Translations under genes and position numbers: made by a program
Assembly (NCBI RefSeq): GCF_019428685.1
Contig: NZ_CP080095.1
Span: 2,728,001-2,792,000 of the forward strand
Source of the DNA: Paraburkholderia edwinii
GTDB lineage: Bacteria; Pseudomonadota; Gammaproteobacteria; Burkholderiales; Burkholderiaceae
Length of the DNA stretch: 64,000 bases
Direction: 5' to 3'
The notes under the pieces: generated by a model
Seen by the model: the letters and a program-made list of their open reading frames with translations, nothing else
The model's database searches: none
What the model was told of the DNA's origin: nothing
Shown: one piece after another, positions 3,285 through 49,446 of the stretch
Layout of the letters: each line of letters starts with the position of its first letter
Numbering within the stretch: position 1 is the first letter of the stretch

Positions 3285-4036
3285 ATCTACCTCCAGGCAA
3301 TTCCTCGTTTATAATTATTCTGTTATACGAATAAATCTGAATTCATGATCTTCACCGTTCAAGGAACGGAAGTTGAGCATCTCCGTTTGCGACACTAGCA
3401 AATACCAAAGCGACATTACCTTTCCGATAGATCCGTGCGTATTGTGTAGCGGGTAGCCGGGCAACATTAATGTCACATTGCACCGGTAGGCGGCATCAGC
3501 GACGACCTGCCATCCATTACGCCATAGTCACGCAGCTTAGACAACTAAACCAAGGTATTCATTTCAATCCAGGGATATCGTCTTTTTAAACGGAATTTCA
3601 CGGCGTGTTTCCGTAATATCGGTATCGTGGTTCCACATTGCTAATTCGTATATCCAGTTATACGAAGTTAAGACGTGTACCCGTCTAAGGATTCGTTATG
3701 GTGGAGGAGAGGTTCCCACAACATATCGAATGGCCAGATCGCGGACACCGGACGCTGTGCATGCCGTCGTCGACATGCACGTATCGCCGATTGCACCCGG
3801 TAGCGCGCATTGAACCACCACGAATATATGCAACGTGCGCGATCGTGGAAAGAGCAAACAAAAGTCAATACGAACGTATAGCCTGGGTCGACTAAAGATG
3901 CCGTAGTATTGAGCTAGCGTCGCACGCATCATTCTGAAATCAGTCGTTAGCGAGACCGATCGAACGCGATTAACGAAGCCGATCCTGGCATCGGGGTTCG
4001 ATGCGGATTCCCGTTTTCCGTTCTCGACAGCACAAG
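3285..4036. other. Intergenic region with inverted repeats
   Basis: This 752-bp AT-richer region has no supportable gene. It holds a 7-bp inverted repeat TTCGTAT (3645-3651) / ATACGAA (3660-3666) and the ATAC-N4-GTAT palindrome at 3868-3879. From about 3840 onward it is recognisably similar to the region before the second receiver gene (from about 30660), which suggests a conserved promoter and leader. Confidence 0.6.
3868..3879. promoter_or_regulatory. ATAC-N4-GTAT palindrome, site 1
   Basis: The sequence ATACGAACGTAT lies about 157 bp before the ATG of the response regulator at 4037. The same half-sites occur at five other intergenic places in the window. Site 3 (30691-30702) lies at the same distance from the paralogous receiver gene, which argues for an operator. 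Confidence 0.55.
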
Positions 4037-4402
4037 ATGATCGTAGTCATAGACGACGACCCGTCTGTTCGCGAGGCCGTCGAAAACCTCATCGCTTCGC
4101 GGGACTTTCCAGTGAGCAGCTATAGCTCGGCGGAGCAATTCGTCGCGTCAGGTGATTTTGATTCGGTTAGCTGTGTGGTCACGGATATCCAGATGCCGGG
4201 AATGAGCGGTATGCAATTGCAGCATTACCTGCGTGCGATTCACTGTTCCGCGCCGGTGATTCTGATGACGGCCTATTTCGACGAAAGCGCGCAGCGCGAA
4301 GCGATGACCAACGGTGCGGCGGCGTATCTGGTCAAGCCTTTCAGCAGCGCTGATCTGATCAGGGAAGTCGAAAGGGCACTCGCGTCGCGCGAATCGCCGT
4401 GA
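4037..4402 (+). CDS. Single-domain response regulator (receiver only), copy 1
   Basis: This 121-residue protein is a CheY-like receiver with no output domain. The acidic pocket is VIDDD, the phospho-acceptor aspartate lies in VVTDIQMPG, the switch threonine in LMTAYFD and the conserved lysine in VKPF. It is nearly identical to the protein at 30860-31225. It converges on the histidine kinase gene, which ends 84 bp away, and is a likely phosphorylation partner. With no DNA-binding domain it probably acts as a phospho-sink, a phosphorelay intermediate or a competitor of the FixJ-type regulators nearby. The ATG at 4037 is the start because the conserved strand beta-1 begins at residue 2. Confidence 0.9.
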   Translation: MIVVIDDDPSVREAVENLIASRDFPVSSYSSAEQFVASGDFDSVSCVVTDIQMPGMSGMQLQHYLRAIHCSAPVILMTAYFDESAQREAMTNGAAAYLVKPFSSADLIREVERALASRESP

Positions 4403-4485
4403 TTTTTTGTCGAATCACTTACTTTTTTCGTGCGGCTTTACCCTGGCGTTGCGAACAGATTGGCCCGCCTGGCGACCTGCGACGG

Positions 4486-6150
4486 TCAGTCGGATGCGCA
4501 CGGCACCGCGAACTGGAATGAGGTGCCCTGTTCGGGACTCGAGTAGACGACCAGTTTGCCGCCGTGCGCCTGGACGATCGAGCGGGATATCGACAGTCCC
4601 ATGCCCATGCCGTGTTTCTTCGTCGAATACATTGCTTCGAAAACGCGCCCCGTCAGATCCGCGCTAAACCCGACCCCGTTGTCGTGCACCGTGACTTGCA
4701 CCGCTTCTTTTCCGAGCATGGCTGTCGACACTTGCAACCGTCGTGGCCCGTCCTTGCCCGCCATCGCTTCGATCGCGTTGCGCATCAGATTGAGCATCAC
4801 CTGCTGAAGTTGCACGCGGTCGCCCAGTGCCGGCAGGGTTGCCGCCAGTTCGAGCCTCAGGCTGATCATATTGCGCTCGATGTCGCTGCGCAGCATCATC
4901 GCGACTTCGCGTATCGCGTCGTCAATGTGCACCGCGGTCTTGGCGAAGCCGGTTTTCCACGATAGCGCGCGCAAACCCGCGACCACTTTCGAGACGCGCT
5001 CCGCGTCGCGCGTCGTACGCGTCGCGGCCTGCCGGGCCTGCTCGAGATCCGGTCTTGATCGCACGAGCCAGCGCAGACAGGTTTCAGCGTTCGTCATGAC
5101 CGCCGTCAGCGGTTGATTGATCTCGTGGATGATCGACATCGCCAGTTCGCCCATTGCCGCAAAGCGCAGCGAGCGGGCCTGATCAGCCTGCGCGGTCTCG
5201 AGGGCCTCGGCCGCGAGCCGTCTTTCCGTCACGTCCCTGACGATGCCCACATATTCCAGGCCGCCTTCGGGATCGAGATTGGGATGTCCTTCCGCGCATA
5301 GATAGCGGATGTCGCCGTCGTGAATGGCGATCCGGTATTCGAACTTGAATACGCTGCATTGCGCCACTGCATCCGCTAAAGCCTGTTCGAACAGGGGCCG
5401 GTCGTCCTCGTATACGCGTTCGATAAACGCCCGATACGACAGATTGCTCTCATCCGGCAGATCGTAGATGCGGAAAAGCTCTTTCGAGGCGGTCATGCGT
5501 TGCGTTCGCACATTCCATCGCCAACTGCCGGTGCGGCTGATTCTCTGCCCCTCCGCCAGGGCGAATTCGGTCGCGAGCAGGTTGCGCTCGGCCGTTTGCA
5601 TCGCGTTTTCCGCCTGGACTGCGCGCGCTTCCAGACGGACATTGCGCAGCGCAAAGTCCGTCTGTGCGGCGAGCAGAAGGATGAACGCCCGCGCGGTCGT
5701 CGTCAGCTCGAGTTTCTCGCTGGCTTCACCGATCAACAACAGGTCGCCGCCGATTTCACTCGCATCGAGCGGTACCCAGTGAATATCAGCCGCCGCCGCG
5801 GCAGGTTGCGCACCGCCGGCGCGATCGGCTGCATGGTCAAACGGCGTGCGCGCGAAATCGAGCGCGAGACCGGATAACGCGGATGCGACGTGCCTGTCGT
5901 CATGAGGCGCGTTACAGATATGCATCATGACATCGTCGCCGATAAGATCGGCGCGGCAACGAATCACGGGTTTGCCGGGCACTCGCGCAACGACAAGCGC
6001 ACGACGCGCATCGCAAAATGAAAGGACACCCCGCATGAAAATTTCGAGTATTTCCCGCGAATCGGACTTGCCACGAATTTTCGTGGACCAGTCGACTAGC
6101 GTCGAAAGCCCGGTCACGTATCGAACTGCAGCTTCGCTCATTGACGACAT
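4486..6150 (-). CDS. PAS domain sensor histidine kinase
   Basis: This 554-residue protein has no clear membrane segment and is probably cytosolic. Residues 1-180 look like a GAF-type region. A PAS domain with PAC motif follows at about 205-320, including SRTGSWRWNV and GIVRDVTERR. The HisKA phospho-acceptor is in IIHEINQPLT and the HATPase domain holds NLMRNAIEAM, DNGVGF and GMGMGLSISRS. This is the FixL/TodS-like soluble architecture. It is the only kinase in the window, so it may serve both receiver proteins and the three FixJ-type regulators. A palindromic site lies 262 bp upstream at 6412-6423. The PAS ligand cannot be read from sequence. Confidence 0.9.
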   Translation of the reverse strand: MSSMSEAAVRYVTGLSTLVDWSTKIRGKSDSREILEIFMRGVLSFCDARRALVVARVPGKPVIRCRADLIGDDVMMHICNAPHDDRHVASALSGLALDFARTPFDHAADRAGGAQPAAAAADIHWVPLDASEIGGDLLLIGEASEKLELTTTARAFILLLAAQTDFALRNVRLEARAVQAENAMQTAERNLLATEFALAEGQRISRTGSWRWNVRTQRMTASKELFRIYDLPDESNLSYRAFIERVYEDDRPLFEQALADAVAQCSVFKFEYRIAIHDGDIRYLCAEGHPNLDPEGGLEYVGIVRDVTERRLAAEALETAQADQARSLRFAAMGELAMSIIHEINQPLTAVMTNAETCLRWLVRSRPDLEQARQAATRTTRDAERVSKVVAGLRALSWKTGFAKTAVHIDDAIREVAMMLRSDIERNMISLRLELAATLPALGDRVQLQQVMLNLMRNAIEAMAGKDGPRRLQVSTAMLGKEAVQVTVHDNGVGFSADLTGRVFEAMYSTKKHGMGMGLSISRSIVQAHGGKLVVYSSPEQGTSFQFAVPCASD

Positions 6151-6411: not shown

Positions 6412-6423
6412 ATACGAACGTAT
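6412..6423. promoter_or_regulatory. ATAC-N4-GTAT palindrome, site 2
   Basis: ATACGAACGTAT, identical to site 1, lies in the 330-bp gap between the kinase start (6150, reading left) and the stop of the AraC gene (6481). The kinase is the only gene whose promoter could use it. Nothing else recognisable is in the gap. Confidence 0.5.
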
Positions 6424-7443: not shown

Positions 7444-7831
7444 TTTCTCCACCCACCGGTCGCCGCAAAGTGGTTTGACCCGGGTTTCCTTGAGGAAGCC
7501 CAAAGCCCACGCGGCATCGCTCTGGTCGATTGCATCATTCCTGATTCATCCATTTTTGCATAAACAGCCACAAGAAGGGCGCACTGTCCAAGGGTACTCT
7601 CGCTGTCACGCGGCTTGTCGGCGCGACATTCTAATCAGCCCTGTCATTCATTTGCCATGGTTAAAGAAAACATCATTCAAAAATGGACGAATAGCGACTC
7701 ACTCCGGATTCTTTGCTTCTCAGTGCCCTATAGACTTGCTATTCATCCGTACCCCCTCCGCATAAGTGCGCGCGCATGGCTTAAGCACGGAGCGCGGTGG
7801 TATCCAGCACATCATTACACAGGAGCCAAGC
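7444..7831. other. Upstream region of FixJ-type regulator copy 1
   Basis: This 388-bp gap between divergent genes has no supportable gene. The stretch 7680-7760 is alignable with 31243-31320 before FixJ copy 2: both contain TGGACGAATAG, a GACTCA block and a following AT-rich segment. It probably contains the conserved promoter of these two genes. Confidence 0.5.
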
Positions 7832-8569
7832 GTGGCAGCATATGCAATTGGACCGGGCGCTCAAGCTGCTTCCACGGTCTTCGTTGTCGACGACGACGAT
7901 TCGGTGCGGGAAGCTCTTCAAGGATTACTGACATCCGTGGGCCTTCGTTCGAAGGCTTTTGCAACCGCCCAGGCATTCCTCGAATACGACGAGGCCGACG
8001 TCGGTGCAACCGCGAGCTGCCTGGTGGTCGATATCCGTATGCCCGGGATCGGCGGTCTTGATCTGCAAAGCCGTCTCGTGCAAAGAAGGCGCGTTCCGCC
8101 GATCATTTTCATGTCGGCGTTCGGCGACGTCGCCATGACGGTTCAGGCGATGAAAGCCGGCGCGCGAGATTTCCTGCCCAAGCCGTTTCGCGATCAGGAC
8201 ATGCTCGATGCGGTCTGTTCAGCCCTGAAATACGACGAACAGATGCGAGCGTTGGAGAAATCGCGCGAAAGCCTGGAGGAACGGTATCGCTCTTTGTCCG
8301 ATCGCGAGCGTGCGCTCCTGCAAATGTTGGGCGACGGGCTGATGAACAAGCAGATTGCATCGAGGCTTTGCTTAAGCGAAATCACCGTCAAAGTCGGGCG
8401 CCGTCAATTGATGCAGAAGATGAGGGCTCGCAATTTTGTGCAACTGATCAAGATGGAAAGTCTGATAAGGGGCCTGGACAACCAGAAGGTACGCGCATCA
8501 TACGAGGGCGGCGCGAACGAAGTGGCCTATCGGCTGGAATCGGCTATCGCACGCGTCTTGCACGAGTAA
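7832..8569 (+). CDS. FixJ-type response regulator (receiver plus LuxR HTH), copy 1
   Basis: The protein has 245 residues. The receiver domain holds VVDDDDSVREAL, the acceptor aspartate in VVDIRMPG, and KPFRDQDML. A LuxR/FixJ helix-turn-helix follows with LSDRERALLQMLGDGLMNKQIA. The start is a GTG with AGGAG 6 bp before it, at the position matching the GTG of the paralogue at 31392; an in-frame ATG further upstream lacks this signal. It is strongly similar to the 31392-32048 protein but has an extra tail of about 25 residues. In this class, phosphorylation drives dimerisation and promoter activation. Confidence 0.9.
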   Translation: MAAYAIGPGAQAASTVFVVDDDDSVREALQGLLTSVGLRSKAFATAQAFLEYDEADVGATASCLVVDIRMPGIGGLDLQSRLVQRRRVPPIIFMSAFGDVAMTVQAMKAGARDFLPKPFRDQDMLDAVCSALKYDEQMRALEKSRESLEERYRSLSDRERALLQMLGDGLMNKQIASRLCLSEITVKVGRRQLMQKMRARNFVQLIKMESLIRGLDNQKVRASYEGGANEVAYRLESAIARVLHE

Positions 8570-25285: not shown

Positions 25286-25699
25286 TCAGCCTTGGCTTGC
25301 CTCTTCAATGACTGAAGAAAGTATCATTGCGGTCGCGTTGGCGGGCCTTGGGAACGCGGGAGGCCGATAGACACTATCACCCTTTTTTATCTGGTGTCCG
25401 CTCATTGAGCAAAACCCGTCCCGCTTCGCAATCGAGAGACACCATAGCTGATATCCATAGTTACAGCGAGTGGGATCCTTCCACGACACCAGCGCTGAAG
25501 TGGGGTTAGGCCTGTCCAGCACCGTAACGTGTGCGCGCTTGTGATAGGAATCATCCTCGCCATCAGACATCCGCTTGAGCCACTTTCGGTTCATCGCTTC
25601 GCGCGTTTCCTTTTCGCTATGCGAAGAGGTGCGGAGCAGCGATTTAGCGATTTGCGACCAACGGGGAGTACCGTGCACTAGCGTTCCCTTGCACTTCAC
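25286..25699 (-). CDS. DUF3331 domain-containing protein coupled to ccsA
   Basis: This 137-residue protein has the DUF3331 core: VTVLDRPNPTSALVSWKD, a Cys-rich stretch with WCLSIAKRDGFCSMSGH, and KKGDSVYRPP. Its GTG start overlaps the stop of the cytochrome c assembly gene (GTGA), and GGAAAG within that gene serves as ribosome site, so translation is coupled. The four cysteines and one histidine (CNYGYQLWC, FCSMSGH) resemble a zinc ribbon. Coupling to ccsA suggests a role linked to cytochrome c assembly, which is inference. It is similar in outline to the protein at 2847-3284. Confidence 0.75.
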   Translation of the reverse strand: MKCKGTLVHGTPRWSQIAKSLLRTSSHSEKETREAMNRKWLKRMSDGEDDSYHKRAHVTVLDRPNPTSALVSWKDPTRCNYGYQLWCLSIAKRDGFCSMSGHQIKKGDSVYRPPAFPRPANATAMILSSVIEEASQG

Positions 25700-26892
25700 A
25701 GCTTTCCGTAGCTATGCAGGCCGGAAAGGAACATATTCACGCCGAGGAACGCGAACGTGGTGACCAGCAGGCCCGTGAGTGCCCACCATGCCGCCACCGC
25801 GCCGCGCAGGCCTTTCATCAGGCGCATATGCAGCCATGCGGCGTAATTGAGCCACACGATCAGCGCCCACGTCTCCTTCGGATCCCAGCTCCAGTAGCCG
25901 CCCCACGCTTCCGCGGCCCACAGCGCGCCGAGAATCGTCGCGACTGTGAAGAACGCGAAGCCGACTGCGATCGACTTGTACATCACGTCGTCGAGCACAT
26001 CGAGCGTGGGCAGGCGGTCGGACAGCACGCCACGCTCCTTCATCAGATACGCGACGCCGACCATCGCCGACAGCGCAAAGCTGCCGTAACCGATAAAGTT
26101 CGCCGGCACGTGGATCTTCATCCACCAGCTCTGCAGCGCGGGCACGAGCGGCTGGATCTGCTGCGCATCGCGCGCGATCGAATACCACATGAGAAAGCCG
26201 ACCGCCGCGCTGATCACGAGCAGCACGAACGCGCCGAGCGCGCGCGTGTTGTAGTGCGTTTCGTAATACAGGTAGAAGAGCGCCGTAATCAGGCTGAACA
26301 ACACGAACACTTCATAGAGGTTCGAGATCGGAATATGGCCGACGTCCGCGCCGATCAGATACGACTCGTACCAGCGCACCATCAGGCCGGTGAAGCCCAT
26401 CAGCACCGCGGCCCACGTCATTTTCGAGCCGATCGCGGCGCCCGTTGCGGAACGCGACAACAGGCCGATCCAGTAGAACAGCGTGGCGAACACGAAGAGC
26501 GCGCTCATCCACAGGATGGCGGACTGGCTCGACAGGAAATACTTGAGGAAGAACGCGTTATCGGCGCGCGACAGGTCGCCGTGATAGATCCCGATGGCCG
26601 ACAGCGACAGCGCCGCGATGCCGATCATCAGCGGCCGTACGGGCTTCCACCGCCAGCCGAGCACGACGAACACCGGCACCGCGCACACGAGCACGAGTTT
26701 GTCGTAGTAGTTCATGAACGCGTGGTAGCGCGACAGCGCAAACCCCGCGCCGCCGGCGAGCACCAGTGCGAACAGCCAGTCGAATGGGGTAGAGCGCCTT
26801 AGTCGCGAATGTGCCGCGCGATGCAACCAGCTGCTTTGCGTCTGCGCGCGCGTAATCTGAGAGAGATGCGATGAGGAAGAAGGTTGGCTCAT
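25696..26892 (-). CDS. Cytochrome c biogenesis protein CcsA/ResC (named CcsB in some Burkholderiales)
   Basis: This 398-residue polytopic protein belongs to the system II haem-handling family. The periplasmic WWD-type motif is WGGYWSWDPKETWALIVWL near residue 330, and external histidines such as HVPANFIGYG are present. With ResB it exports haem and ligates it to apocytochrome CXXCH motifs. The first 30 residues are polar, so a later start is possible. Its usual partner gene, resB, is normally adjacent. Here the only ResB is about 16 kb away at 42379-44541. It lies downstream of the ba3 oxidase operon on the same strand. Confidence 0.92.
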   Translation of the reverse strand: MSQPSSSSHLSQITRAQTQSSWLHRAAHSRLRRSTPFDWLFALVLAGGAGFALSRYHAFMNYYDKLVLVCAVPVFVVLGWRWKPVRPLMIGIAALSLSAIGIYHGDLSRADNAFFLKYFLSSQSAILWMSALFVFATLFYWIGLLSRSATGAAIGSKMTWAAVLMGFTGLMVRWYESYLIGADVGHIPISNLYEVFVLFSLITALFYLYYETHYNTRALGAFVLLVISAAVGFLMWYSIARDAQQIQPLVPALQSWWMKIHVPANFIGYGSFALSAMVGVAYLMKERGVLSDRLPTLDVLDDVMYKSIAVGFAFFTVATILGALWAAEAWGGYWSWDPKETWALIVWLNYAAWLHMRLMKGLRGAVAAWWALTGLLVTTFAFLGVNMFLSGLHSYGKL

Positions 26893-27061: not shown

Positions 27062-27877
27062 TCATCGTCCAGTGGCCGCAGCAGGTTGCTGACCCGTACT
27101 TGCGAAAAAGTGCGCCGCCGCGTCGATTTCGGCATCGGTCATATTCCGCGCAATGTTACGCATCTGCGCATCGATGTCGTTGTGGCGTTCGCCCTTTGAG
27201 AAAGCCGTCAATTGCTCGTGTAGATACGACTCAGGCATGCCCTGTAGCAAAGGCGCGGCCGCCTTGTGACCCACACCCCCGTGGCAAGTCGCACACGCAA
27301 CGATGTTTCTCACCGGCGCACCCTGCGCGACGATCGGCGGTGCAGTCGGCTCGTCGCCGTAGCGTCGCGGCATATCGGCTTTTCGGGAGCCGAAGAACAT
27401 CGCAAGATCTCGCGCGTCGCGCTCAGTGAGGCCCGCAGCGATCGTCGTCATAATGACGTTGGTTCGCGCACCCGATTTGAAATCAATCAGTTGCTTGTAG
27501 ACGAACGCCGCATCCTGCGCCGCAAGGTCCGGCGCCACCTGTAAGCTCGCGTTGTGACAGCCTGAGCAGCGCGTGGCGAGCGTCGCGCCACGGCCAACCG
27601 CCTCGTCGTTCGTCACACTGAGCAACTGTGGCGTCACCATGACCGTGCTCCTTTGCGCACCCGGCGTCACCACATCGCTGGTTTGAGTCAGCCAGGGGCG
27701 CGGCACACCGGCCGCGCTGCAGATCGCGTTCCAGATTCCCTGAAACTGCGGGTCACGCTGTGCAGAGGGCAGCCAGACGAAGCCGATCAGCGCCGATACG
27801 AATATGACTGTCAGCATGCCGCCCGCGGCCGTCACTAACCAGCGGTTCTGCAGAGAAAAAATGCGCTCGTTATCCAT
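27062..27877 (-). CDS. Membrane-anchored dihaem cytochrome c (c4-like)
   Basis: This 271-residue protein has one N-terminal membrane helix (residues ~14-35) and two c-type haem sites: CSGCH at 104-108 and CATCH at 195-199. Each is followed by a Met-containing helix of the cytochrome c4 type. It begins 8 bp inside the end of the oxidase subunit I gene. It is the likely electron donor to the oxidase, fixed on the periplasmic face. Its haems need the system II proteins encoded nearby. Confidence 0.9.
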   Translation of the reverse strand: MDNERIFSLQNRWLVTAAGGMLTVIFVSALIGFVWLPSAQRDPQFQGIWNAICSAAGVPRPWLTQTSDVVTPGAQRSTVMVTPQLLSVTNDEAVGRGATLATRCSGCHNASLQVAPDLAAQDAAFVYKQLIDFKSGARTNVIMTTIAAGLTERDARDLAMFFGSRKADMPRRYGDEPTAPPIVAQGAPVRNIVACATCHGGVGHKAAAPLLQGMPESYLHEQLTAFSKGERHNDIDAQMRNIARNMTDAEIDAAAHFFASTGQQPAAATGR

Positions 27878-29504
27878 GGCTGCCCCCTCGCGCGACTGGA
27901 ATCGCAGGAACCGAGGTTCCTGCTCGAGTGAGCAGCGATGCGACGGGATACCCGTAGTTGAACACCGTCAGCGCGATCATCAGTGCGAGCCACAAGCGAA
28001 AGCCGTTAAGTGCGGCCGGTAACGCCTCGCTTTGATGGACCGGAACGCTAAAGCCGTATTCGCCCGGTTCGACGCGCGGAGATCGATGGGCACGCACCAG
28101 AATTGCCACGAACAGTGCTGCCGATACGAGAACGACAAGTGCGCCTGCGACCGACATGATGACGGGTACAGCCTGTGCGGCAATTTCGGCGTTCGTATAG
28201 TCGTAGTAGGCCATGCGTCGCGGCATGCCCTGAATGCCTGTCAGATGCCACGGCAGCGTGAGCACGAGCATGCCGATAAACCATAGCCACAATTGAACGC
28301 GCATCAGCTTGAAGTCGGTCATCGCGCGGCCGGTCAGATGAGGCCACAGGTCGTAGGCGATGGCGAAATACATGATGACGACCGCACCGGCAAAAATTAA
28401 ATGAAAGTGCCCCGTCACCCACTGTGTGTTGTGGATCGTCGAATCGAGCTGGTAGCTCATGTTGATGAGACCACCTGCGCCGCCAAGACCCAGCATGATG
28501 AACGAGAAGCAGACGGCCAGCATCATGGGGTTGTCCCACGGCAGCGCCTTGAGCCAGCGCAGCCTGCCGGAGCCGCCGCGCATGCGTGCCGCAATCTCGA
28601 CCGACGCACAGATCGTGAACACTGTCAGCAAGGTCGGAATCGCGACGAGCGTAGTAAAGACCGAGTGCAGGAACTTGAAGCCCGATCCAACCTGAGGATC
28701 GGCGAACAGGTGATGAATACCGATCGGCATCGACACGACCAGAAACAGCACGAATGAAACTCTTGCCATCGAATCGCTGTAAAGCCGCCCGCCGATCGCG
28801 CGAGGGACGATCGTGTAATACGCGATGTAGGCGGGCATCAGCCAGAAGTAGACGATTGCGTGCAAGGTCCAGGAAAAGAACACACGCGCGAGCCCGGCAT
28901 TAATGGTGGATTTGAATCCGAGTGCGACCGGAAGGATCTGAAAAATCAATTCGATCGCTGCACCCACAGCCGTCCAGCCCCACAGATAGGCACTCGCGAC
29001 ACTCGCGAACATCGCAAGCGGAACCGGCTTCCCTCGATTCGCGCGCTTCCAGACAAGCAGGTTGACCGACATTAGCGCGACCCAGATCCATGAGCCAACG
29101 ACGATCAACACGACGCCGATGTAGTAGAGCGCACTGCCGATCAGCGGCGGATAGAAGGTGTACAGCACCGAAGCCGTACCGATGGCGATTGCAATGACTG
29201 CCATCACGAGACCGGCAAGCACCAGCACGAAGCCTGTCCACGCCCAGCGTAAGCCGGCGAGCGTCGTCTTCAGCGAAAGCTCGGTAATGGCATAACCGAA
29301 GCCCATCGCCACCAGAGTGGGGAACACATAGCCCATCGTCGTGCCGTGCGCCGTCACCGAGCGGTAGTAGAGGTCCGGATCGTTAAGCGGCGGATGCAAG
29401 GGACTGCGGGCAACCATCTGCCACGCGCCCAGCACGAGCGCGATGGCGAAGCTCGCGAAGGCGAGCCAGAAATGAGCAAGAACGAGTTTTCGGTTAACGA
29501 GCAC
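27870..29504 (-). CDS. ba3-type (type B) cytochrome c oxidase subunit I
   Basis: This 544-residue haem-copper oxidase has about 13 membrane helices. Low-spin haem ligands are the His in TAHGTTMGY and one in TGHFHL. The CuB ligands are the His in LHAIVYFWLMPAY, with the cross-linking Tyr four residues on, and HH in GIHHLFADPQV. The second His of TGHFHL serves the active-site haem. This pattern is of the Thermus ba3 class, which has high oxygen affinity. The start is a GTG with GGAG 8 bp upstream, overlapping subunit II by 11 bp. Confidence 0.93.
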   Translation of the reverse strand: MLVNRKLVLAHFWLAFASFAIALVLGAWQMVARSPLHPPLNDPDLYYRSVTAHGTTMGYVFPTLVAMGFGYAITELSLKTTLAGLRWAWTGFVLVLAGLVMAVIAIAIGTASVLYTFYPPLIGSALYYIGVVLIVVGSWIWVALMSVNLLVWKRANRGKPVPLAMFASVASAYLWGWTAVGAAIELIFQILPVALGFKSTINAGLARVFFSWTLHAIVYFWLMPAYIAYYTIVPRAIGGRLYSDSMARVSFVLFLVVSMPIGIHHLFADPQVGSGFKFLHSVFTTLVAIPTLLTVFTICASVEIAARMRGGSGRLRWLKALPWDNPMMLAVCFSFIMLGLGGAGGLINMSYQLDSTIHNTQWVTGHFHLIFAGAVVIMYFAIAYDLWPHLTGRAMTDFKLMRVQLWLWFIGMLVLTLPWHLTGIQGMPRRMAYYDYTNAEIAAQAVPVIMSVAGALVVLVSAALFVAILVRAHRSPRVEPGEYGFSVPVHQSEALPAALNGFRLWLALMIALTVFNYGYPVASLLTRAGTSVPAIPVARGGSHG

Positions 29505-30063
29505 AGCTTATTCTCCGTCCGCGGCTACGACGCATGAGGTCGTCGAAAGTACGCTTCTCGATCACTTTGACGTGAGCCCACATGCCCTGATGTCCGGTTC
29601 CGCAGAACTCGTGGCACGGCATCAGATGGTCGGCGGGATTGGCGAAGGTCGTGTGAAACGTGGACACGTAGCCGGGTTCGATCATCGAATTGATATTGGT
29701 GCCGGTGATCAGCATGCCGTGGATCACGTCGGCGCTGGTCGCGCGAAACGTGACCGGCACGTTCGCCGGCACAAGAATGCATTGCGGCGTAAATGAATAT
29801 TGCTGGGCAACGATGCGCACCGTGACCGATCCGTCAGGCTCGGTCGCGGTACCCAGATTTTCTTCGACGAACTCGCCGCTCGTGTTCAGCGTTTCTGGCT
29901 GTATCGTCTCGACGCGTGACGGCGGCATCATCGCCCAGTGCAGGCCGGTGAACACCACCACACCGACGAGCACGAGCAGAATCGCGCTCATCAGCATCGC
30001 CCACTTCCGTTCAATGCGCTCGATGATGCTTTTCGAGGCAGACTCCGTTCCGCGCGTGCTCAT
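29494..30063 (-). CDS. ba3-type cytochrome c oxidase subunit II (CuA)
   Basis: This 189-residue protein has one membrane helix (residues ~24-46) and a periplasmic cupredoxin domain. The CuA site is the His of DVIHGML plus CHEFCGTGHQGM, which provides two Cys, the Glu backbone position, His and Met. The short Arg-rich tail overlaps the subunit I start. The ATG overlaps the stop of the small upstream gene (ATGA). It accepts electrons from a cytochrome c or HiPIP and passes them to subunit I. Confidence 0.93.
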   Translation of the reverse strand: MSTRGTESASKSIIERIERKWAMLMSAILLVLVGVVVFTGLHWAMMPPSRVETIQPETLNTSGEFVEENLGTATEPDGSVTVRIVAQQYSFTPQCILVPANVPVTFRATSADVIHGMLITGTNINSMIEPGYVSTFHTTFANPADHLMPCHEFCGTGHQGMWAHVKVIEKRTFDDLMRRSRGRRISCAR

Positions 30064-30218
30064 TGAATGACGCCGCGCGGCAGAAACACGAGAAAGTAAA
30101 AGGCGAACCAGATCGCGAAGACGATCGCAGTCGCGGAGCCCGCGAGTACGATCGCCCCTGACGGCCCCGCCTGCACAATGCTTTCGATATCGGCTTGTTT
30201 CTCTTTACTGACAATCAT
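30060..30218 (-). CDS. Small oxidase subunit, IIa-like (52 residues)
   Basis: This ORF is shorter than usual annotation cut-offs. It encodes a short polar N terminus (MIVSKEKQADIES) and then one membrane helix (AIVFAIWFAFYFLVFL), ending in RGVIQ. Its stop overlaps the subunit II ATG by 4 bp. Type B oxidases of the Thermus class carry a separate single-helix subunit IIa that replaces the first helix of a usual subunit II. Length, topology and position all fit that. It is the first gene of the IIa-II-I-cytochrome c operon. Confidence 0.8.
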   Translation of the reverse strand: MIVSKEKQADIESIVQAGPSGAIVLAGSATAIVFAIWFAFYFLVFLPRGVIQ

Positions 30219-30390: not shown

Positions 30391-30402
30391 ATACATTCGT
30401 AT
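30391..30402. promoter_or_regulatory. ATAC-N4-GTAT palindrome, site 4
   Basis: ATACATTCGTAT lies 173 bp before the start of the oxidase operon (30218, reading left). On the minus strand it directly precedes a TTGGCA hexamer with a TTGATA hexamer 17 bp on, so it sits where an activator would bind. Confidence 0.5.
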
Positions 30403-30702: not shown

Positions 30703-30859
30703 AAACTGCGTCTGCGAACAACTGGCGTACTATTGCGCTGACATTGCGCGCTTCTCCATGGACATCGATCGGTTGCAGAGGCCCGCCTGACACGATTAAA
30801 AAAGCAGAACCTTGCTCGCATTTCAAGCAGGTTCTGCTTACTGTTCCCGAGAGCACAAG

Positions 30860-31225
30860 ATGATCGTAGTCGTAGACGACGACCCGTCTGTTCGTGAGGC
30901 CGTCGAAAATCTCATTGCCTCCCGGGGCCTGCCAGTGCGCAGTTATAGCTCGGCGGAGCAATTCCTTGCCTCTGGTGATTTTGATTCGGTTACCTGTGTG
31001 GTGACGGATATCCAGATGCCGGGGATGAGTGGCCTGCAATTGCAGCATTACTTGCGCGCGATTCACTGTTCAGCGCCGGTGATTCTGATGACCGCCTATT
31101 TCGACGAAAGCGCACGGCGCGAAGCGATGACCCGTGGTGCCGCGGCGTATCTGATCAAGCCCTTCAGCAGCGCCGGTCTGATCAGGGAAATCCATCGCGC
31201 ACTCGCGTTGCGCGAGTCGTCGTGA
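30860..31225 (+). CDS. Single-domain response regulator (receiver only), copy 2
   Basis: This 121-residue receiver is nearly identical to the 4037-4402 protein and shares VVDDDPSVREAVENLIASR (19 residues), VVTDIQMPG and the IKPFSS lysine. There is no output domain. The main differences are Val for Ile in the acidic pocket and changes in the last helix. It is followed 166 bp later by a FixJ-type regulator on the same strand. The ATG at 30860 is the counterpart of 4037. The two copies probably share a kinase. Confidence 0.9.
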   Translation: MIVVVDDDPSVREAVENLIASRGLPVRSYSSAEQFLASGDFDSVTCVVTDIQMPGMSGLQLQHYLRAIHCSAPVILMTAYFDESARREAMTRGAAAYLIKPFSSAGLIREIHRALALRESS

Positions 31226-31391: not shown

Positions 31392-32048
31392 GTGGCAGCA
31401 TCTGCAATTGCATCGGACGATCAGCTTGGTTCGATGGTCTTCGTCGTCGACGATGACGATTCAGTTCGGGAAGCTCTTCGAGGATTACTGAAATCCGTGG
31501 GCCTTTGTTCGAAGGCTTTTTCAACCGCGCAGGCATTCCTCGAATTCGACGAGGCGGACACGGGCGCATACGCAAGGTGTCTGGTAGTTGATGTTCGTAT
31601 GCCCGGGATCGGGGGCCTTGACCTGCAAAACCGTCTCGCGCAAAGAAGGCGCGTTCCGCCGATCATTTTCATGTCGGCGTTCGGCGACGTCGCCATGACG
31701 GCCAAGGCAATGAAAGCGGGCGCGCGGGACTTCCTGTCCAAACCGTTTCGCGATCAGGACATGCTCGACGCAGTCTCCTCAGCGCTGAAATACGACGAGC
31801 AGAGGCAAGCGATCGAGCAATCGCGCGAAAGTCTGGAGACGCTCTATCGTTCTCTTTCCGGCCGCGAGCGCGCGCTTCTGCAGATGTTGGGCGATGGGCT
31901 GATGAACAAGCAGATTGCCTCGAAACTCTGCTTAAGCGAAGTCACCATCAAGACGGGGCGTAAGTCATTGATGACAAAGATGAAGGCTCGAAGCTTCGCA
32001 CAATTGATTAAGATGGAAGATATGATAAGAGGATTAGACGACCGCTGA
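31392..32048 (+). CDS. FixJ-type response regulator, copy 2
   Basis: This 218-residue protein has a receiver (VVDDDDSVREALRG, acceptor aspartate in VVDVRMPG, KPFRDQDML) and a LuxR HTH (LSGRERALLQMLGDGLMNKQIA). It is close to the protein at 7832-8569. It starts with GTG, preceded by AGGAG. The region from TGGACGAATAG (about 31243) to the start resembles that before copy 1, so both are probably controlled alike. The target sites are unknown; the ATAC-N4-GTAT palindromes are candidates. Confidence 0.9.
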   Translation: MAASAIASDDQLGSMVFVVDDDDSVREALRGLLKSVGLCSKAFSTAQAFLEFDEADTGAYARCLVVDVRMPGIGGLDLQNRLAQRRRVPPIIFMSAFGDVAMTAKAMKAGARDFLSKPFRDQDMLDAVSSALKYDEQRQAIEQSRESLETLYRSLSGRERALLQMLGDGLMNKQIASKLCLSEVTIKTGRKSLMTKMKARSFAQLIKMEDMIRGLDDR

Positions 32049-36926: not shown

Positions 36927-37682
36927 GTGAACATGCAAACACCTGGCCTTAAGTCAGAAAATAATGCCCCGCCGGTAGTCCTGGTGGTTGACGACAATGC
37001 TTCAGTCCGTGAGGCGATATCGGAATTGCTCAATTCCGTGGGCATTGTGGTTAAGCGCTTTCCGTGTGCCCAAGACCTGTTAAAGCAGATCGGGGATTCC
37101 AACGATGGTGAAATCAGGAATGCAAATTGTTTAATTCTTGATGTTCGTATGCCAGGAATGGGAGGACTTGAACTTCAACATCGACTGCATACGGCAAACT
37201 TTAACGTGCCAATCATTTTTATCTCCGCGCACGGTGACGTCAGGATGACGGTTGACGCGATGAAGGCCGGTGCGTTGGATTTTCTGAGCAAACCGTTCCG
37301 CAGTCAGGACATGCTGAACTCCGTCGGGACTGCGATTGAGTACGACCATCGTCGTCGAGAGATTGACCGCCGGAACAATGAGCTTCTTGTCCGGTATTCA
37401 ACCTTGACACCGAGGGAGCGAAGCGTATTGGCTCTTGTGGCACAGGGATTGTTGAATAAGCAGATTGCGTGGGAACTGGGTCTCGCTGAAATCACGATCA
37501 AGGCCAGCCGATCGCATTTGATGAGAAAAATGCAGGCAAGATCAGTTGCGGAACTGGTTAAAATGGAAGCCTGTTTAAATGAAGCGACCGCAAATCAAGG
37601 GGAAAATACGATCTCAGGAGAGGGTCGTCAAATTATTAGTAATTTTTCGCTGCCCGAAGAAAATCGACCCGGCTATTCTTGA
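36927..37682 (+). CDS. FixJ-type response regulator, copy 3
   Basis: This protein of 249-251 residues has a receiver (VVDDNASVREAI, acceptor in LDVRMPGMGG, KPFRSQDML) and a LuxR HTH (LTPRERSVLALVAQGLLNKQIA). AGGAGGA precedes a GTG at 36927 and an ATG at 36933; either could be the start. It is clearly related to copies 1 and 2 but more distant, and its C-terminal tail differs. The gene is more AT-rich than its neighbours. It is probably driven by the sigma-54-type promoter upstream. Confidence 0.88.
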   Translation: MNMQTPGLKSENNAPPVVLVVDDNASVREAISELLNSVGIVVKRFPCAQDLLKQIGDSNDGEIRNANCLILDVRMPGMGGLELQHRLHTANFNVPIIFISAHGDVRMTVDAMKAGALDFLSKPFRSQDMLNSVGTAIEYDHRRREIDRRNNELLVRYSTLTPRERSVLALVAQGLLNKQIAWELGLAEITIKASRSHLMRKMQARSVAELVKMEACLNEATANQGENTISGEGRQIISNFSLPEENRPGYS

Positions 37683-41635: not shown

Positions 41636-42214
41636 TCAGTGCAAGGGCGGATAGCCGCGGCTATATATCCAGTCAGACCCTTGCGCTGGCACATGACAGG
41701 ACAGACAGTCCTTCTTGTAATCCGTCGAGGTCGTCTTCCTGCGATCAGTTGCGTCAAACCAGGCCCAACCCCAATTTTCTCCCCAAAGCTTGTTTTGCGG
41801 AAATCGGCCGCTATCGTCTTTCACCATGATGAACCAGCCCGAGAGCGTGTCTGCACTACTGACGGTTCCGGTTGTCATAGATTGAGTGGTTGACTTGAAC
41901 ACTTCCTTCACGAGAACCGTGCCATCCGGAAAATGTCCGTCTTTGCGATACGCGGCGATGGTTCCTGGAGAGGCATAGACCACATGCATCTGATTTGAGC
42001 CTGGACCGTTATCGGCAGCGACCGCCCAGCTGCCCAGCAGCTGATAAGCGGTCCGGTAGTCGTCGGGCACGTGCATATCGCCCTTGCCGTCGACAACAGT
42101 GGCTGCGGCAGTTCCTTTGTACGGTACGCGCGTATCAGTCTGCCCGTAAGCAGTGACGGCGACCGTCATGGACAATGCTGCCAGGGCGACGCCCAAGACA
42201 CCGACAATTTTCAT
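41636..42214 (-). CDS. Cytochrome P460-family protein, copy 1
   Basis: This 192-residue protein has a signal peptide (hydrophobic residues ~5-22) and one c-type haem site, CLSCH, at 170-174. Family motifs are HFPDGTVLVKE, GWFIMVKDDSGRF and NWGWAWFD. P460 cytochromes carry a haem cross-linked to lysine and oxidise hydroxylamine or bind NO; the related cytochrome c'-beta binds NO. Which type this is cannot be told here. The start at 42214 has GAGGA upstream. It lies 165 bp after the ResB gene on the same strand. Confidence 0.85.
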   Translation of the reverse strand: MKIVGVLGVALAALSMTVAVTAYGQTDTRVPYKGTAAATVVDGKGDMHVPDDYRTAYQLLGSWAVAADNGPGSNQMHVVYASPGTIAAYRKDGHFPDGTVLVKEVFKSTTQSMTTGTVSSADTLSGWFIMVKDDSGRFPQNKLWGENWGWAWFDATDRRKTTSTDYKKDCLSCHVPAQGSDWIYSRGYPPLH

Positions 42215-42378: not shown

Positions 42379-44541
42379 TCAGGATGCCGGCACTTTCCGG
42401 TTCCTCAATATCGCGCTGACGTCGTCGCGCGTACGCGTGAACTCACTCTCGAAATCAAGCGTGCGACGCGCAGCGGACATCGCCATCAGGACGTCTGTAC
42501 CGCCGTCTTCGGAACGCTTGAGCCAAAACCAGAGACGCCGCTCGCGGACGTAGAACATGGAAAAGATACCTATAACGAGAAAAAGGCTGCCGACGTAGAC
42601 CAGCGACTTACCTGGCGCGCGAGTCAACTGGAACGCCGAGGCCTGTACCTGCGTGAACGAATCGAGTTGAAGAAAGATCGGCGCGCCATAATAAAAGCTG
42701 TCCGACAGGGCATCGATAGAAGAGCGGATAAATGAAATCTGCGAAGGATATGGCGTCGCGTTGGGTTCGCCATGCTCAACCCTCGAAAGCTGCCAGAGAT
42801 CCCACATCACGCCATTGAGCGTGCGCAGAAGCTCCCTGGCGGTTTCTTCCTGCTGCACCTTGGGCACTGAGTGATCAATCAAACCGGCAATTGCCGGGAA
42901 GCCGCCCGCTGCCGACGCAGCCGCCGTCGGCGCCCCGTCCGGCGTCACGCCGGCGAAACGATCCAGCAGTCGGGACACTTCCACTTCCGTACGATTCCGC
43001 GTATCAGCGTCAGCGCTCAAATACGAACGCCGTACAAATAGGGATACTGCCCGGTTACGCATGCTGGGATTTTGCAGGGCGGCGCGCAGGTTCATCCAGT
43101 CTCGCACTGAATTATGTTCGTCTGCAGGAATCCGAATAAAGCGGAACGGGTCGTTGATGCCTAATCTCACGCCAGCCAGAAACATCGGTTGGCCTGACAC
43201 GTTGACGGGAAGCATAAAAGTTCGGTACTCGTGGGCTTGGCCGTTGACATCGCGGACCTTATATTCCATCGAGGGTCCGAGGTTTCTCAGGCTCGTCGCA
43301 TGATTGCTTTTCGCGCCCGATCCCAGTCGCGCATCAATTTCATCCACGAGCGCATGTTCTTTTGAAACCCGTTGCGCACGATGGGCGTCTTGAGCGTTTC
43401 CTGCGTCTTCGACGTTGATCGAACGGAAGTCGGTGAATTCCACCGTCTCCCGATCGATGCTGGTCATACCGCCTATGACACCCTGCAGCGGCTCCGTGGC
43501 TGCCGTTCTGCCCGTCATTGGCCACACCGTCATCGCTACCTTTGAACCGCCGTCCTGGAAGCTCGACTGATAGATTGAGATGCCGTCGTATGTGAACGGC
43601 TTGTTCACCTCGACGCGCGCTTGAACGTGCCTGCCCGTCTTATGATCCGTCACTACGATGTCACTTGCGAACAGCTTGGGCATACCCGTCGAATAGTAGT
43701 CGACGACGAATTTCTTTAGCTGGATTGAGAACGGCAAATCCTGGATCAGTGAACCGCCTGGCCGGTTAAGTATCGCCGAGCTGGTTTGTTGGCCTTCCGG
43801 TACGACCGAGAACGCGCGGAACGTCGGATTCGAAGGCGATAGCCGATGGGCCGGCGGGATTGCGTCAACGTCGGTATCCAGCTCGGTCGCTGTCTTGCCG
43901 AAGATCCACATCTGCAATTCAATGGGCAGATTACTGTCCAGTAGACCACCAGCGCAGATGACGACAATCGCCACATGCGCCAGAATGTAGCCCAGCTTTG
44001 TGAGTGCGCCTCGTTTGCCTGCGATCAGTATCTCGCCCGTGCTGGTTTCACGAATGACCAGTCTATAGCCCAAGCGGTGCCCCAAACGCGTTAAAAGCTC
44101 TGCTGTATTGGCGCAATTCATGGCGGTCGAGTGGAATTCACTCTTATGGCGGAATGCACGCAGGCTTGCCTCGCGTATTCGATCTTTCCAGCTCCGCGCG
44201 TCCTGGATCATTTTCGGGGCGTTATGAATGACGCAGAGTGAAACAGACACTACGATGAACATCAAGATCAACATGAACCACCACGCCCCGTAGACCTCAT
44301 ACAGACCGAGGCCGCGGAAGATGTCAGCCCAGAACGGACCGAACTGGTTCACGTAGTTTGAGTACGGATCCTCCTGTGTAACGACGGTACCGATGATGCT
44401 CGCGATCGCAAGTATCACCAGTGACGCGATGGCAAAGCGCATCGACCTGAAGAGGCCAACGGCACGCTTCAGCTTATGTTTAGTTTCGTGAACTCCTAAG
44501 CAGATCTGGCCTTCGGCCGTCAGACGCTTACTCAAGGGCAC
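42379..44541 (-). CDS. Cytochrome c biogenesis protein ResB (system II)
   Basis: This 720-residue protein has the ResB layout. Three N-terminal helices include RSMRFAIASLVILAIASIIG and EVYGAWWFMLILMFIV. A large periplasmic domain follows, then a last helix near residue 650 (LVYVGSLFLVIGIFSMFYV). The conserved NQFGPFWADIFRGLGLYEVY is present. ResB works with the CcsA-type protein to bring reduced haem to apocytochromes. The first codon appears to be GTG. It sits between the two P460 genes, while its CcsA partner is beside the ba3 oxidase. Confidence 0.92.
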   Translation of the reverse strand: MPLSKRLTAEGQICLGVHETKHKLKRAVGLFRSMRFAIASLVILAIASIIGTVVTQEDPYSNYVNQFGPFWADIFRGLGLYEVYGAWWFMLILMFIVVSVSLCVIHNAPKMIQDARSWKDRIREASLRAFRHKSEFHSTAMNCANTAELLTRLGHRLGYRLVIRETSTGEILIAGKRGALTKLGYILAHVAIVVICAGGLLDSNLPIELQMWIFGKTATELDTDVDAIPPAHRLSPSNPTFRAFSVVPEGQQTSSAILNRPGGSLIQDLPFSIQLKKFVVDYYSTGMPKLFASDIVVTDHKTGRHVQARVEVNKPFTYDGISIYQSSFQDGGSKVAMTVWPMTGRTAATEPLQGVIGGMTSIDRETVEFTDFRSINVEDAGNAQDAHRAQRVSKEHALVDEIDARLGSGAKSNHATSLRNLGPSMEYKVRDVNGQAHEYRTFMLPVNVSGQPMFLAGVRLGINDPFRFIRIPADEHNSVRDWMNLRAALQNPSMRNRAVSLFVRRSYLSADADTRNRTEVEVSRLLDRFAGVTPDGAPTAAASAAGGFPAIAGLIDHSVPKVQQEETARELLRTLNGVMWDLWQLSRVEHGEPNATPYPSQISFIRSSIDALSDSFYYGAPIFLQLDSFTQVQASAFQLTRAPGKSLVYVGSLFLVIGIFSMFYVRERRLWFWLKRSEDGGTDVLMAMSAARRTLDFESEFTRTRDDVSAILRNRKVPAS

Positions 44542-44680: not shown

Positions 44681-44692
44681 ATACATGCGTAT
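44681..44692. promoter_or_regulatory. ATAC-N4-GTAT palindrome, site 5
   Basis: ATACATGCGTAT lies 140 bp before the ResB start and 56 bp before promoter site C of the P460 gene. It could act on either or both. Confidence 0.5.
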
Positions 44693-44876: not shown

Positions 44877-45512
44877 ATGTTGAAGCGACTCTCGGTCATT
44901 GGTGCCGTGGTGATTGCGTGCACGGCATCGTTTAGCACCGGTGTCTGGGCTGACTCTGATGGTCAGGATCTACCCACAGTAAAACGACAGCTTCCGGAAT
45001 ACACCGCAGATGGCCAGCTGCTACTTCCGAAGAATTTTCATCAATGGATCTACGTCGGGAGTCCGTTGACGCCGAACGCCCTTAACGGCGGCAAAGCGAA
45101 CTTCCCGGAGTATCACAACGTGTACATCGAACCGGGTTCGTACGCGATCTACAAAAAGACTGGCGAATTCCCGGAGGGAACCATCTTCGTCAAGGAGCTT
45201 CAGCTGACCACGCAGCAACAGTTCCCCGATGGATCGAGGAATGAGCCTTCCGGTCGCGGTTACTTTCCGGGGAAGTTCAATGGCGCTGATGTCACCGTGA
45301 AGGATTCAAAGCGCTTTGCAGCGACAGACGGCTGGGGATACTTCAATTTCAATCACTTTGAGCCAAAGGCAAAGATGGCAAAGGTGAAGGCGAAAGAAGA
45401 GTGTGCGTTCTGCCATATCGCGAGCGCAAAGAAGGACGATGTGTGGACGCAGTTCTACCGGTTGCTGGATGATGATGGCCACCTGAACCCCAACTACAAG
45501 CCCGGAACCTGA
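44877..45512 (+). CDS. Cytochrome P460-family protein, copy 2
   Basis: This 211-residue protein has a signal peptide (VIGAVVIACTASFSTGVWA) and a haem site CAFCH at 176-180. Family motifs are GEFPEGTIFVKE, VTVKDSKRFAATDGWGYFNF and KDDVWTQFYR. AAGGAG lies 7 bp before the ATG. It is diverged from copy 1, and the two flank the ResB gene. It is driven by promoter site C. A role in NO or hydroxylamine handling is possible, but the haem-lysine link cannot be assigned. Confidence 0.87.
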   Translation: MLKRLSVIGAVVIACTASFSTGVWADSDGQDLPTVKRQLPEYTADGQLLLPKNFHQWIYVGSPLTPNALNGGKANFPEYHNVYIEPGSYAIYKKTGEFPEGTIFVKELQLTTQQQFPDGSRNEPSGRGYFPGKFNGADVTVKDSKRFAATDGWGYFNFNHFEPKAKMAKVKAKEECAFCHIASAKKDDVWTQFYRLLDDDGHLNPNYKPGT

Positions 45513-48101: not shown

Positions 48102-49406
48102 TCAACGGTCCGATGCCGGCACACCGCTTTCGATTGGAAGACCCAATCGTGGCCGCAGGCGGATACCGACTGCGCTGCCGGCAAATGCGGCGAGTAGCCA
48201 TAGCCAGCCATGCGCGCTTGCCGAAACGATACCGCTGAAATAAGCCCCGACGTTGGATCCGTACGCCAGGCGCGCGCCGTACCCCAGCATGAGACCGCCA
48301 AACGCGGCTGCAAGCAGTGGCCTTAACGGTACGCGCCACACCGGCGCATAGCGGCCCGCGAGCGCTGCGGCCATCATCGCGCCAAGCATGATGCCCACGT
48401 TCATCACCGTGGGCACGTCGTGAGACAGCGGTGCCGCAAGCGCCACAGCGTTGTCGTACGAAGCCCAGTACGGCCAGCGTGCGACCTTGATGCCAGTCGC
48501 CGATACAGCTTTTGCGCCCCACAGCGCGAAGGCGGAAGTCACGCGCCACGCCTGGCCGGACACCGCAAGCGTGGCGAAGTTGAGCACGGCAAGCAGGAGC
48601 GCAGCGGCTGCCAGTGGCCAGGGACCGTGGACAAGCGAGTGCTGGGACGACACGCTAATGGGTGGCGGCGCTCCCGTACCGTGGCGCCGTCTTTCGACGA
48701 CGACCGTCAGGATCGAAATGCCACCGAGGACAATCCAGCTCAGTGCGAGCGCTGGCACAGCGCCAAACGTATCGCCAAATGTCAGCGAGCCGAGCGAAGG
48801 CAACACGCTCCAGTACACCATATGTGCGGTGCCGAGAACCGATCCGGCAATAAAGGCAAACAACGTGACGATCATACTGATGCCACCGCCGTTCGCCGAG
48901 TAGAGCGTCCCGCACGCACAGCGGCTACTGAGCTGCATCCCGATTCCGGAAATGAACGCTCCGCAGAACACGGAAACGCTAACCGGCGCGGCCGCCGCGC
49001 TCACTTTCGTGCCGAACAATGTGCCTGCCGCAAGTACGGGAAGGAAGAGACCGGCGCCGACGGCAAGCATCAGCGCGTGCGCGCGAATATCCGAGCCGCG
49101 ACGCTCGACGATGAACTGCCGCCACGCGGATGGAAAGCTGAAACTACCGTGATAAAGCGTGATGCCGATGAGTACGCCGATTCCAAAGAGCGCACTCTGA
49201 CGATTGCTCACCAATAACGCCAGATAAACGCAACTGACGACGACGAGGGACGCAGTGATAGCAAGCGCCAGCCGATTAACGCGACGTTGCCCGCCATCCA
49301 GGTTGCCGGTCAGTTCAAGTTCGTTTTCGCCCCTGAAAGAGTTTGTGCGCTCCTTCATTGCAAGATCAACATGATGATTAATCGATCGCCGCTTACGTAG
49401 CATCAT
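48102..49406 (-). CDS. YeeE/YedE-family transporter
   Basis: This 434-residue protein has about ten membrane helices in two repeats of the YeeE/YedE (thiosulfate transporter TsuA-like) family. The first repeat has GMQLSSRCACGTLYSANGGG, with Cys163 and Cys165. The second has GYGARLAYGSNVGAYFSGI, where the usual Cys of a GCN triplet is Ser384. Such cysteines relay thiosulfate through the pore, so substrate or mechanism may differ here. An ATG at 49358 is a possible alternative start. A palindromic site lies just upstream. Confidence 0.85.
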   Translation of the reverse strand: MMLRKRRSINHHVDLAMKERTNSFRGENELELTGNLDGGQRRVNRLALAITASLVVVSCVYLALLVSNRQSALFGIGVLIGITLYHGSFSFPSAWRQFIVERRGSDIRAHALMLAVGAGLFLPVLAAGTLFGTKVSAAAAPVSVSVFCGAFISGIGMQLSSRCACGTLYSANGGGISMIVTLFAFIAGSVLGTAHMVYWSVLPSLGSLTFGDTFGAVPALALSWIVLGGISILTVVVERRRHGTGAPPPISVSSQHSLVHGPWPLAAAALLLAVLNFATLAVSGQAWRVTSAFALWGAKAVSATGIKVARWPYWASYDNAVALAAPLSHDVPTVMNVGIMLGAMMAAALAGRYAPVWRVPLRPLLAAAFGGLMLGYGARLAYGSNVGAYFSGIVSASAHGWLWLLAAFAGSAVGIRLRPRLGLPIESGVPASDR

Positions 49407-49434
49407 GATAGCGAGTCAGTGAGATCCTTCAGCT

Positions 49435-49446
49435 ATACGAGCGTAT
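49435..49446. promoter_or_regulatory. ATAC-N4-GTAT palindrome, site 6
   Basis: ATACGAGCGTAT lies 29 bp before the longest YeeE start, or 77 bp before the alternative. This is the copy closest to a coding start. Confidence 0.45.

Follow-up and report, generated by a model that had tools for sequence, protein, structure and literature searches.

The closest known relatives of the system treated here are the FixL-FixJ-FixT circuit of Sinorhizobium and Caulobacter and the StyR class of response regulators. In Caulobacter, FixLJ switches on terminal oxidases of high affinity as well as FixT, an inhibitor that consists of a receiver only (PMC7078487). FixLJ of Burkholderia dolosa is a low-oxygen system and acts as activator of a fixK reporter (PMC5234846). 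For StyR-like regulators, ATAAACN4GTTTAT has been named as a possible recognition sequence and Lys175, Val176 and His179 as putative DNA contacts (PMC5874301), and the main StyR site is placed at about -40 (PMC2442086). This work deals with a palindrome of 12 base pairs (bp) found in 64,000 nucleotides of the Paraburkholderia edwinii genome (contig NZ_CP080095.1, positions 2,728,001 to 2,792,000), a stretch that is called the window as a whole and whose positions are counted from its first letter. The palindrome, ATAC-N4-RTAT in its general form and ATACRNNYGTAT in this genome, is probably the operator of FixJ/StyR-type response regulators, through which genes for receiver-only proteins and a respiratory module would be activated.

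The kinase, regulator, receiver-only protein, ba3 oxidase and cytochrome assembly genes of the window look like a FixL-FixJ-FixT design. They share with the described circuit a FixJ-type regulator, a FixL-like kinase, a receiver-only protein as putative target and a terminal oxidase among the putative targets. The B. dolosa system may be comparable as a low-oxygen FixLJ system of Burkholderia, and no operator sequence was found in the available part of the literature on it (PMC5234846). From the StyR class the locus differs in its putative targets, which are receiver and respiratory genes instead of genes for aromatic degradation. What appears new is the operator class, together with its association with receiver-only genes across the genus, whereas the regulator family, the promoter layout and the idea of feedback have known counterparts. 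Related to this, a literature search for the palindrome as text gave, besides one match on a CsoR regulator of Thermus, no relevant paper, and the available parts of the literature on FixJ-type regulators, receiver-only systems and Burkholderia at low oxygen gave no such operator, both searches covering papers outside subscription.

The palindrome in the window and in the genome

The conservation, the position and the gene neighbourhood of the palindrome can be read directly from the genomes. The sequence-only reading of the window had placed copies at 3868, 6412, 30391, 30691, 44681 and 49435, and all six are found there, against a mean of 0.11 and a maximum of 1 in 100 dinucleotide shuffles. 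All six are also intergenic, as had been proposed, in a gene call that marks 73.8% of the window as coding (made with our own codon-bias script, trained on the Pfam-supported genes of the window, with approximate gene starts). Two of them precede genes for receiver-only proteins, and the equal distance of about 157 bp that had been noticed is exactly 157 bp to the ATG in both cases (3880-4036 and 30703-30859). The features of these two promoters are as follows:

3868..3879, plus strand: palindrome ATACGAACGTAT, proposed operator of receiver gene 1, centre about -42.5
3904..3909, plus strand: predicted -10 box TAGTAT of receiver 1, from alignment, its position matching the consensus of 54 receiver promoters
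4037..4402, plus strand: receiver-only response regulator 1, 121 amino acids, PF00072
30691..30702, plus strand: palindrome ATACGGATGTAT, proposed operator of receiver gene 2, centre about -43.5
30728..30733, plus strand: predicted -10 box TACTAT of receiver 2, from alignment and consensus
30860..31225, plus strand: receiver-only response regulator 2, 121 amino acids, 88% identical to receiver 1

The exact pattern has 15 occurrences in the 8.3-Mb genome, and its reversed control has 2; with one mismatch allowed the counts are 335 and 184. Six of the 15 exact sites lie within the window, that is, within 0.77% of the genome, and the corresponding binomial P of about 1e-9 is inflated and descriptive only because the motif was chosen in the same window, so that the tests in other genomes carry the weight. 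The nine exact sites outside the window consist of six within called genes and three intergenic ones (loci L010, L013 and L014). L010, located before another receiver-only gene that has a FixJ-type regulator next to it, is the sole intergenic exact site outside the window that is clearly of the same kind, and one-mismatch sites precede two more receiver genes (L288 and L293). The regulon is thus local, and not dispersed as had been suggested.

Conservation before receiver-only genes

The palindrome is very probably the docking site of a two-component regulator because it stands at a near-fixed place before most of the receiver genes examined in relatives. Close relatives of the receiver (E <= 1e-30) are present in 2 of 144 genomes of the genus, with two copies in P. 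edwinii itself and three in genome G028, and all five have an exact palindrome 155-159 bp upstream, the site at 3868..3879 being kept before each of the three G028 copies. In the alignment of the five, GTA(C/G)TAT(T/C)G is conserved and supplies the predicted -10 box, and much of the intervening DNA varies. G028 also has a palindrome-preceded receiver-only gene beside a FixJ-type regulator (L110), as at L010. The view that the arrangement is a peculiarity of two genomes, drawn from the search at E <= 1e-30, was rejected when a search with the L010-type receiver revealed a wider family.

Relatives of the L010 receiver (E <= 1e-22) occur in 74 of the 144 genomes among the 150 matches listed. Of the best 30 of these 150 loci, 28 carry the palindrome, 17 of them exactly and 11 with one mismatch. 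It stands 121-148 bp upstream of the matched start, and it is missing, with up to one mismatch allowed, at L244 and L246. Forty of the other 120 listed receivers, 46-67% identical, were hand-picked down the list: within about 400 bp upstream, exact ATACNNNNGTAT is found in 21 of them and a match with at most one mismatch in 38, against 0.13 and 3.5, respectively, in shuffled upstream stretches. Many of the more distant receivers read ATAC-N4-ATAT. The form ATAC-N4-RTAT (ATACNNNNRTAT, with up to one mismatch) stands 90-180 bp upstream of 72 of the 75 receivers that make up the whole set (the five close copies, the 30 loci and the 40 further ones), and in a like-sized upstream stretch of 33 of 316 comparison genes taken from the other fetched loci (Fisher P 1.5e-48, with kinship among the 75 ignored). 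Fourteen comparison genes have an exact site; five of these are receiver, ResB or P460b promoters of the present set, and two precede FixJ-type regulator genes. Eighty loci from an earlier receiver scan that had returned generic receiver domains (L016-L095) were left out of the counts.

Among the 13 sites of G028, nine are intergenic, four of them before receivers, one before the kinase and one before P460b. In genome G016, 12 of 19 sites are intergenic and six of those (L107, L111, L113, L123, L125 and L132) adjoin receivers, FixJ-type regulators or kinases.

All 75 aligned receivers have the phosphorylatable Asp and the Lys. Unlike in FixT of Caulobacter, a four-Cys iron-sulfur motif was not found in these 75 proteins, and the share of Cys exceeds 40% at a single alignment position (66/75). 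Because Asp and Lys are kept throughout and the four-Cys motif is lacking, a role of the receivers as phosphate sinks may also be possible. The FixL-FixJ-FixT circuit also differs from the present systems in that the kinase here lies under the FixL cut-off and that a single genome carries up to six such receivers among the matches listed.

Promoter layout

When redundancy is removed at 80% identity of the aligned context, 54 receiver promoters are left. They consist of the palindrome, then GATTTYCG-like DNA, then TAnnnT at bases 26-31 past the palindrome end, where T is kept in 46, A in 43 and the final T in 44 of the 54. With TAnnnT taken as the -10 box, and with start sites that are themselves predicted, the palindrome would be centred near -43 in receiver promoters and would overlap the -35 region, a layout that would correspond to that expected of an activator-dependent sigma-70 promoter. 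Within the window it fits receiver 1 (TAGTAT), receiver 2 (TACTAT) and the gene of a sulfur transporter (TATCAT), whose features are:

48102..49358, minus strand: YeeE-type sulfur transporter, PF04143
49405..49410, minus strand: predicted -10 box TATCAT of the YeeE gene, at the same distance from its palindrome as in receiver 1
49435..49446, minus strand: palindrome upstream of the YeeE gene

A sigma-54 promoter was also considered for receiver 2, on account of a TGG...TTGC look-alike, and rejected on inspection: the look-alike lacks one base in its spacing, and the copies do not share it.

Regulators and kinase

The window encodes three regulators of the FixJ/StyR type and a FixL-like kinase with a palindrome upstream:

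4486..6141, minus strand: PAS histidine kinase, FixL-like, NCBIfam FixL model E 1.5e-57, below cut-off
6412..6423, minus strand: palindrome upstream of the kinase, kept as ATACAAACGTAT in G028
7766..8569, plus strand: FixJ/StyR-type response regulator RR1, start uncertain, 7856 taken for searches
31434..32048, plus strand: FixJ/StyR-type response regulator RR2, on the same strand as receiver 2 and 209 bp behind it
36933..37682, plus strand: FixJ/StyR-type response regulator RR3

RR1, RR2 and RR3 all combine a PF00072 receiver with a PF00196 LuxR/GerE helix-turn-helix domain. They are of FixJ type rather than FixJ itself, because they reach 174-181 bits against an NCBIfam FixJ equivalog cut-off of 255; the kinase, which has a PAS_3 domain match, reaches 195 bits against a FixL cut-off of 850. 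The nearest solved relative of RR1 is StyR (1yio, E 1.8e-50), ahead of FixJ (7e-35). The genome encodes at least six related regulators, of which four lie inside the window or close to its edge: a paralogue of RR1 with 80-82% identity lies 12 kb to the left (L134 148-780), with no receiver gene called adjoining it, another RR1-like gene (49% identity) lies on the second replicon, and the regulator of L010 is the sixth.

Within 1.5 kb of the 30 receiver loci there is a FixJ-type regulator in 22 cases, a FixL-like kinase in 13 and either of the two in 26. That a FixJ-type protein would bind the site is well supported by comparison. The marking of receiver genes across the genus, these neighbours and the StyR-like spacing and position favour the FixJ-type regulator that had been proposed from the window; the accompanying idea of one single regulator finds no support, with at least six related regulators in the genome.

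The operator of the StyR/TodT/TutB/TmoT group is also a dyad with a four-base spacer and agrees with the present one in C, A, x, A outward from the centre, and the fifth half-site base is T, as in the StyR/TodT operator, in 31 of the 54 sites here. The position near -43, by the predicted -10 box, would likewise be comparable to the main StyR site at about -40. On the other hand, the third half-site base is T here and not A, and the quoted consensus ATAAACN4GTTTAT is not matched. Lys175 of StyR is kept in the regulators studied here (recognition-helix residues were aligned to StyR by ourselves, with the residue numbers of PMC5874301). Comparison by eye gave no clear link of these residues with the spacer or the flanks of the palindrome.

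Two FixJ-type regulator genes beside receivers (L228 1882-2559 and L249 668-1381) have an exact ATACNNNNRTAT upstream, and autoregulation is possible there. In G028, a piece of 203 amino acids that is 84% similar to the window kinase lies between the third receiver copy and an RR1-like gene (L118 8891-9502), apparently as a partial duplication. Between RR2 and RR3, at 32278-36351, the window encodes two convergent, similarly built GAF-type sigma-54 activators.

The respiratory module

The respiratory genes of the window and their palindromes are the following:

25696..26763, minus strand: CcsB/CcsA cytochrome c biogenesis protein, TIGR03144 above cut-off
27062..30218, minus strand: ba3 oxidase operon (open reading frame of 52 amino acids at 30060-30218, COX2, COX1, cytochrome c), COX1 closest to the Thermus ba3 oxidase
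30391..30402, minus strand: palindrome upstream of the ba3 operon, 172 bp before the open reading frame of 52 amino acids that opens it; the G028 palindrome precedes the P460b-ba3-ResB-CcsA run of that genome
41636..44541, minus strand: resB (42379-44541) and cytochrome P460a (41636-42214)
44681..44692, no strand assigned: palindrome between the divergent resB and P460b, the second P460 gene, from alignment
44877..45512, plus strand: cytochrome P460b, closest to solved cytochromes P460, E ~1e-42

Relatives of P460b (E <= 1e-40) were found in 9 of the 144 genomes of the genus and in 4 of 299 genomes of the family, of which two had already been counted and two were new (G192 and G368). The palindrome upstream of P460b is exact in 9 of these 11 genomes and has one mismatch in G086. 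When the P460b/resB region of nine genomes is aligned, the palindrome is kept among indels in eight; G028, unaligned there, was read separately and has it 149 bp upstream of a run formed by P460b, the 52-amino-acid reading frame, COX2, COX1, cytochrome c, ResB and CcsA on one strand. The window has the same module in two separate units, with one palindrome for each of them, and COX2 and P460b lie within about 1.5 kb of each other also in G020, G021, G043, G082, G086, G107 and G122. The respiratory content that had been attributed to the set of sites is in this way supported for ba3, P460 and ResB by a conserved site. Motif density is 1.28 per Mb in 8 P460b genomes and 0.68 in the other 109 of 117 (Mann-Whitney P 3.7e-4).

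Some further observations concern this module. P460b is 95-97% identical in seven other genomes of the genus and 94% in one of another genus (L215-L221 and L225), and in four of those genomes the adjacent ResB (73-78%) and COX1 (76-77%) are far less alike, which may reflect strong constraint or recent exchange. At L223/L224 (G020:C5:774-2811), a second copy of P460b and COX2 that has decayed and contains stops still has an exact palindrome upstream. Three P460b genomes share a second conserved exact palindrome, again ATACGGATGTAT (L200 19207, L203 18201, L199 2954), with similar flanks and no clear gene behind it. PMC9104464 states that cbb3 and ba3 oxidases are absent in Burkholderia, a statement that contrasts with the presence of relatives of COX2 of the ba3-like oxidase (window 27870-29504) in 123 of the 144 genomes of the genus. 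Besides, an IS110-type transposase lies at the right end of the window (62873-63889).

The operator reading and its alternatives

Several findings weigh against the palindrome being a FixJ/StyR-type operator of the kind described. As regards promoters, those of ba3 and the kinase lack a clear -10 box at the receiver-type distance, a conserved TTTGTT-N17-TAGAAA-like pair before resB would centre the palindrome near -53, and the kinase site, which lies near the 3' end of an AraC-type gene, is 271 bp away from the called kinase start (6141) and, as ATACAAACGTAT, 545 bp away from the kinase gene in G028. As regards regulators, His179 of StyR, one of the putative contacts, is replaced by Arg, Lys or Ser in RR1-RR3 and by Gly in the L010-type regulator; and in 28 loci whose regulators are 50-55% identical to RR1 (L138-L165, 1.5 kb on each side) there is one exact motif and seven ATACNNNNGTAT, a scarcity that means that the motif does not usually stand at the gene of the regulator. 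As regards distribution, only three of the nine exact sites outside the window are intergenic, L013 and L014 having unrelated neighbours; neighbours are also unrelated at 6 of the 12 intergenic sites of G016 and at 3 of the 9 of G028; the palindrome is lacking 90-180 bp upstream of 3 of the 75 receivers (L246, L268 and L276) and in one of the 11 P460b genomes (G368, where the P460b match contains a stop); and 28 of the 30 closest COX2 loci have no site, P. edwinii and G028 being the two that do, so that the link belongs to this module.

It could be argued that an unrelated genus-wide regulator of the FNR/CRP, MarR, AraC or TetR type binds the palindrome and controls both the FixJ-type systems and the respiratory genes. 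This is improbable, even though some sites have AraC- and TetR-type genes in their vicinity, other neighbours are found at about half of the intergenic sites in G016, and in the 54 genomes with no receiver relative at E <= 1e-22 the motif is still slightly above the control (0.56 vs 0.36 per Mb). The site tracks the receiver genes and the FixJ-type regulators that adjoin them, and in spacing and core it is more like the StyR operator than the FNR box. Moreover, the number of motifs follows the number of receivers in 117 genomes, with a Spearman coefficient of 0.55, or 0.41 when genome size is partialled out, against 0.06 for the control (permutation P 0.0005), a correlation that arises partly by construction, as receiver sites are counted, and in which kinship is ignored.

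Control of the sites by one of the two sigma-54 activators from positions 32278-36351 is very unlikely. Sigma-54 activators bind palindromes, and these two sit among the sites; however, the receiver promoters have a conserved sigma-70-type -10 box at a fixed distance, no -24/-12 element is seen in the consensus of the 54, and receiver genes are usually found next to FixJ-type regulators and kinases. Hardly any weight can be given to the view that duplicated receiver loci merely carried the sequence along by descent, since, although the G028 copies are paralogous to receivers 1 and 2 and the upstream DNA of all of them can be aligned, the 54 non-redundant promoters keep the palindrome arms and the -10 box and not most of the DNA between and around them, and the resB-P460b intergenic region keeps the arms among indels.

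Proposed mechanism and implications

From the comparisons above we infer binding, activation, feedback and a low-oxygen or redox signal, in the following order. A FixL-like PAS kinase would phosphorylate a FixJ/StyR-type regulator, which would then dimerise and bind the palindrome. Bound near -43 in receiver promoters, the regulator would recruit RNA polymerase to the -10 box that starts 25-26 bases downstream. Its commonest target would be a receiver-only protein whose phosphorylation residues are intact. Like FixT in the FixL-FixJ-FixT circuit, this protein would probably exert feedback on the kinase. In P. edwinii and nine relatives (one of them with a mismatch) the putative operator also precedes P460b and, through P460b or linked units, might control ResB, CcsA and the ba3 oxidase.

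A broader idea can be put forward tentatively. The paralogous FixJ-type systems of the genus may perhaps share one operator, each activating its own receiver-only gene, with the receivers forming a layer of FixT-like feedback or of cross-talk; one branch would then have captured the respiratory module (ba3, P460 and cytochrome c assembly) by the gain of the operator, and the majority of the nearest ba3 operons that were compared in relatives would have stayed outside.

FixJ-type systems of this kind, with the receiver-only proteins that go with them, form a large group that has been little studied. The analysis gives them a predicted operator and a predicted promoter layout, from which their regulons could be predicted. 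It suggests that a FixT-like feedback design may exist outside the alphaproteobacteria, and it would provide a specific example of a respiratory module that was linked to a two-component network already in place.

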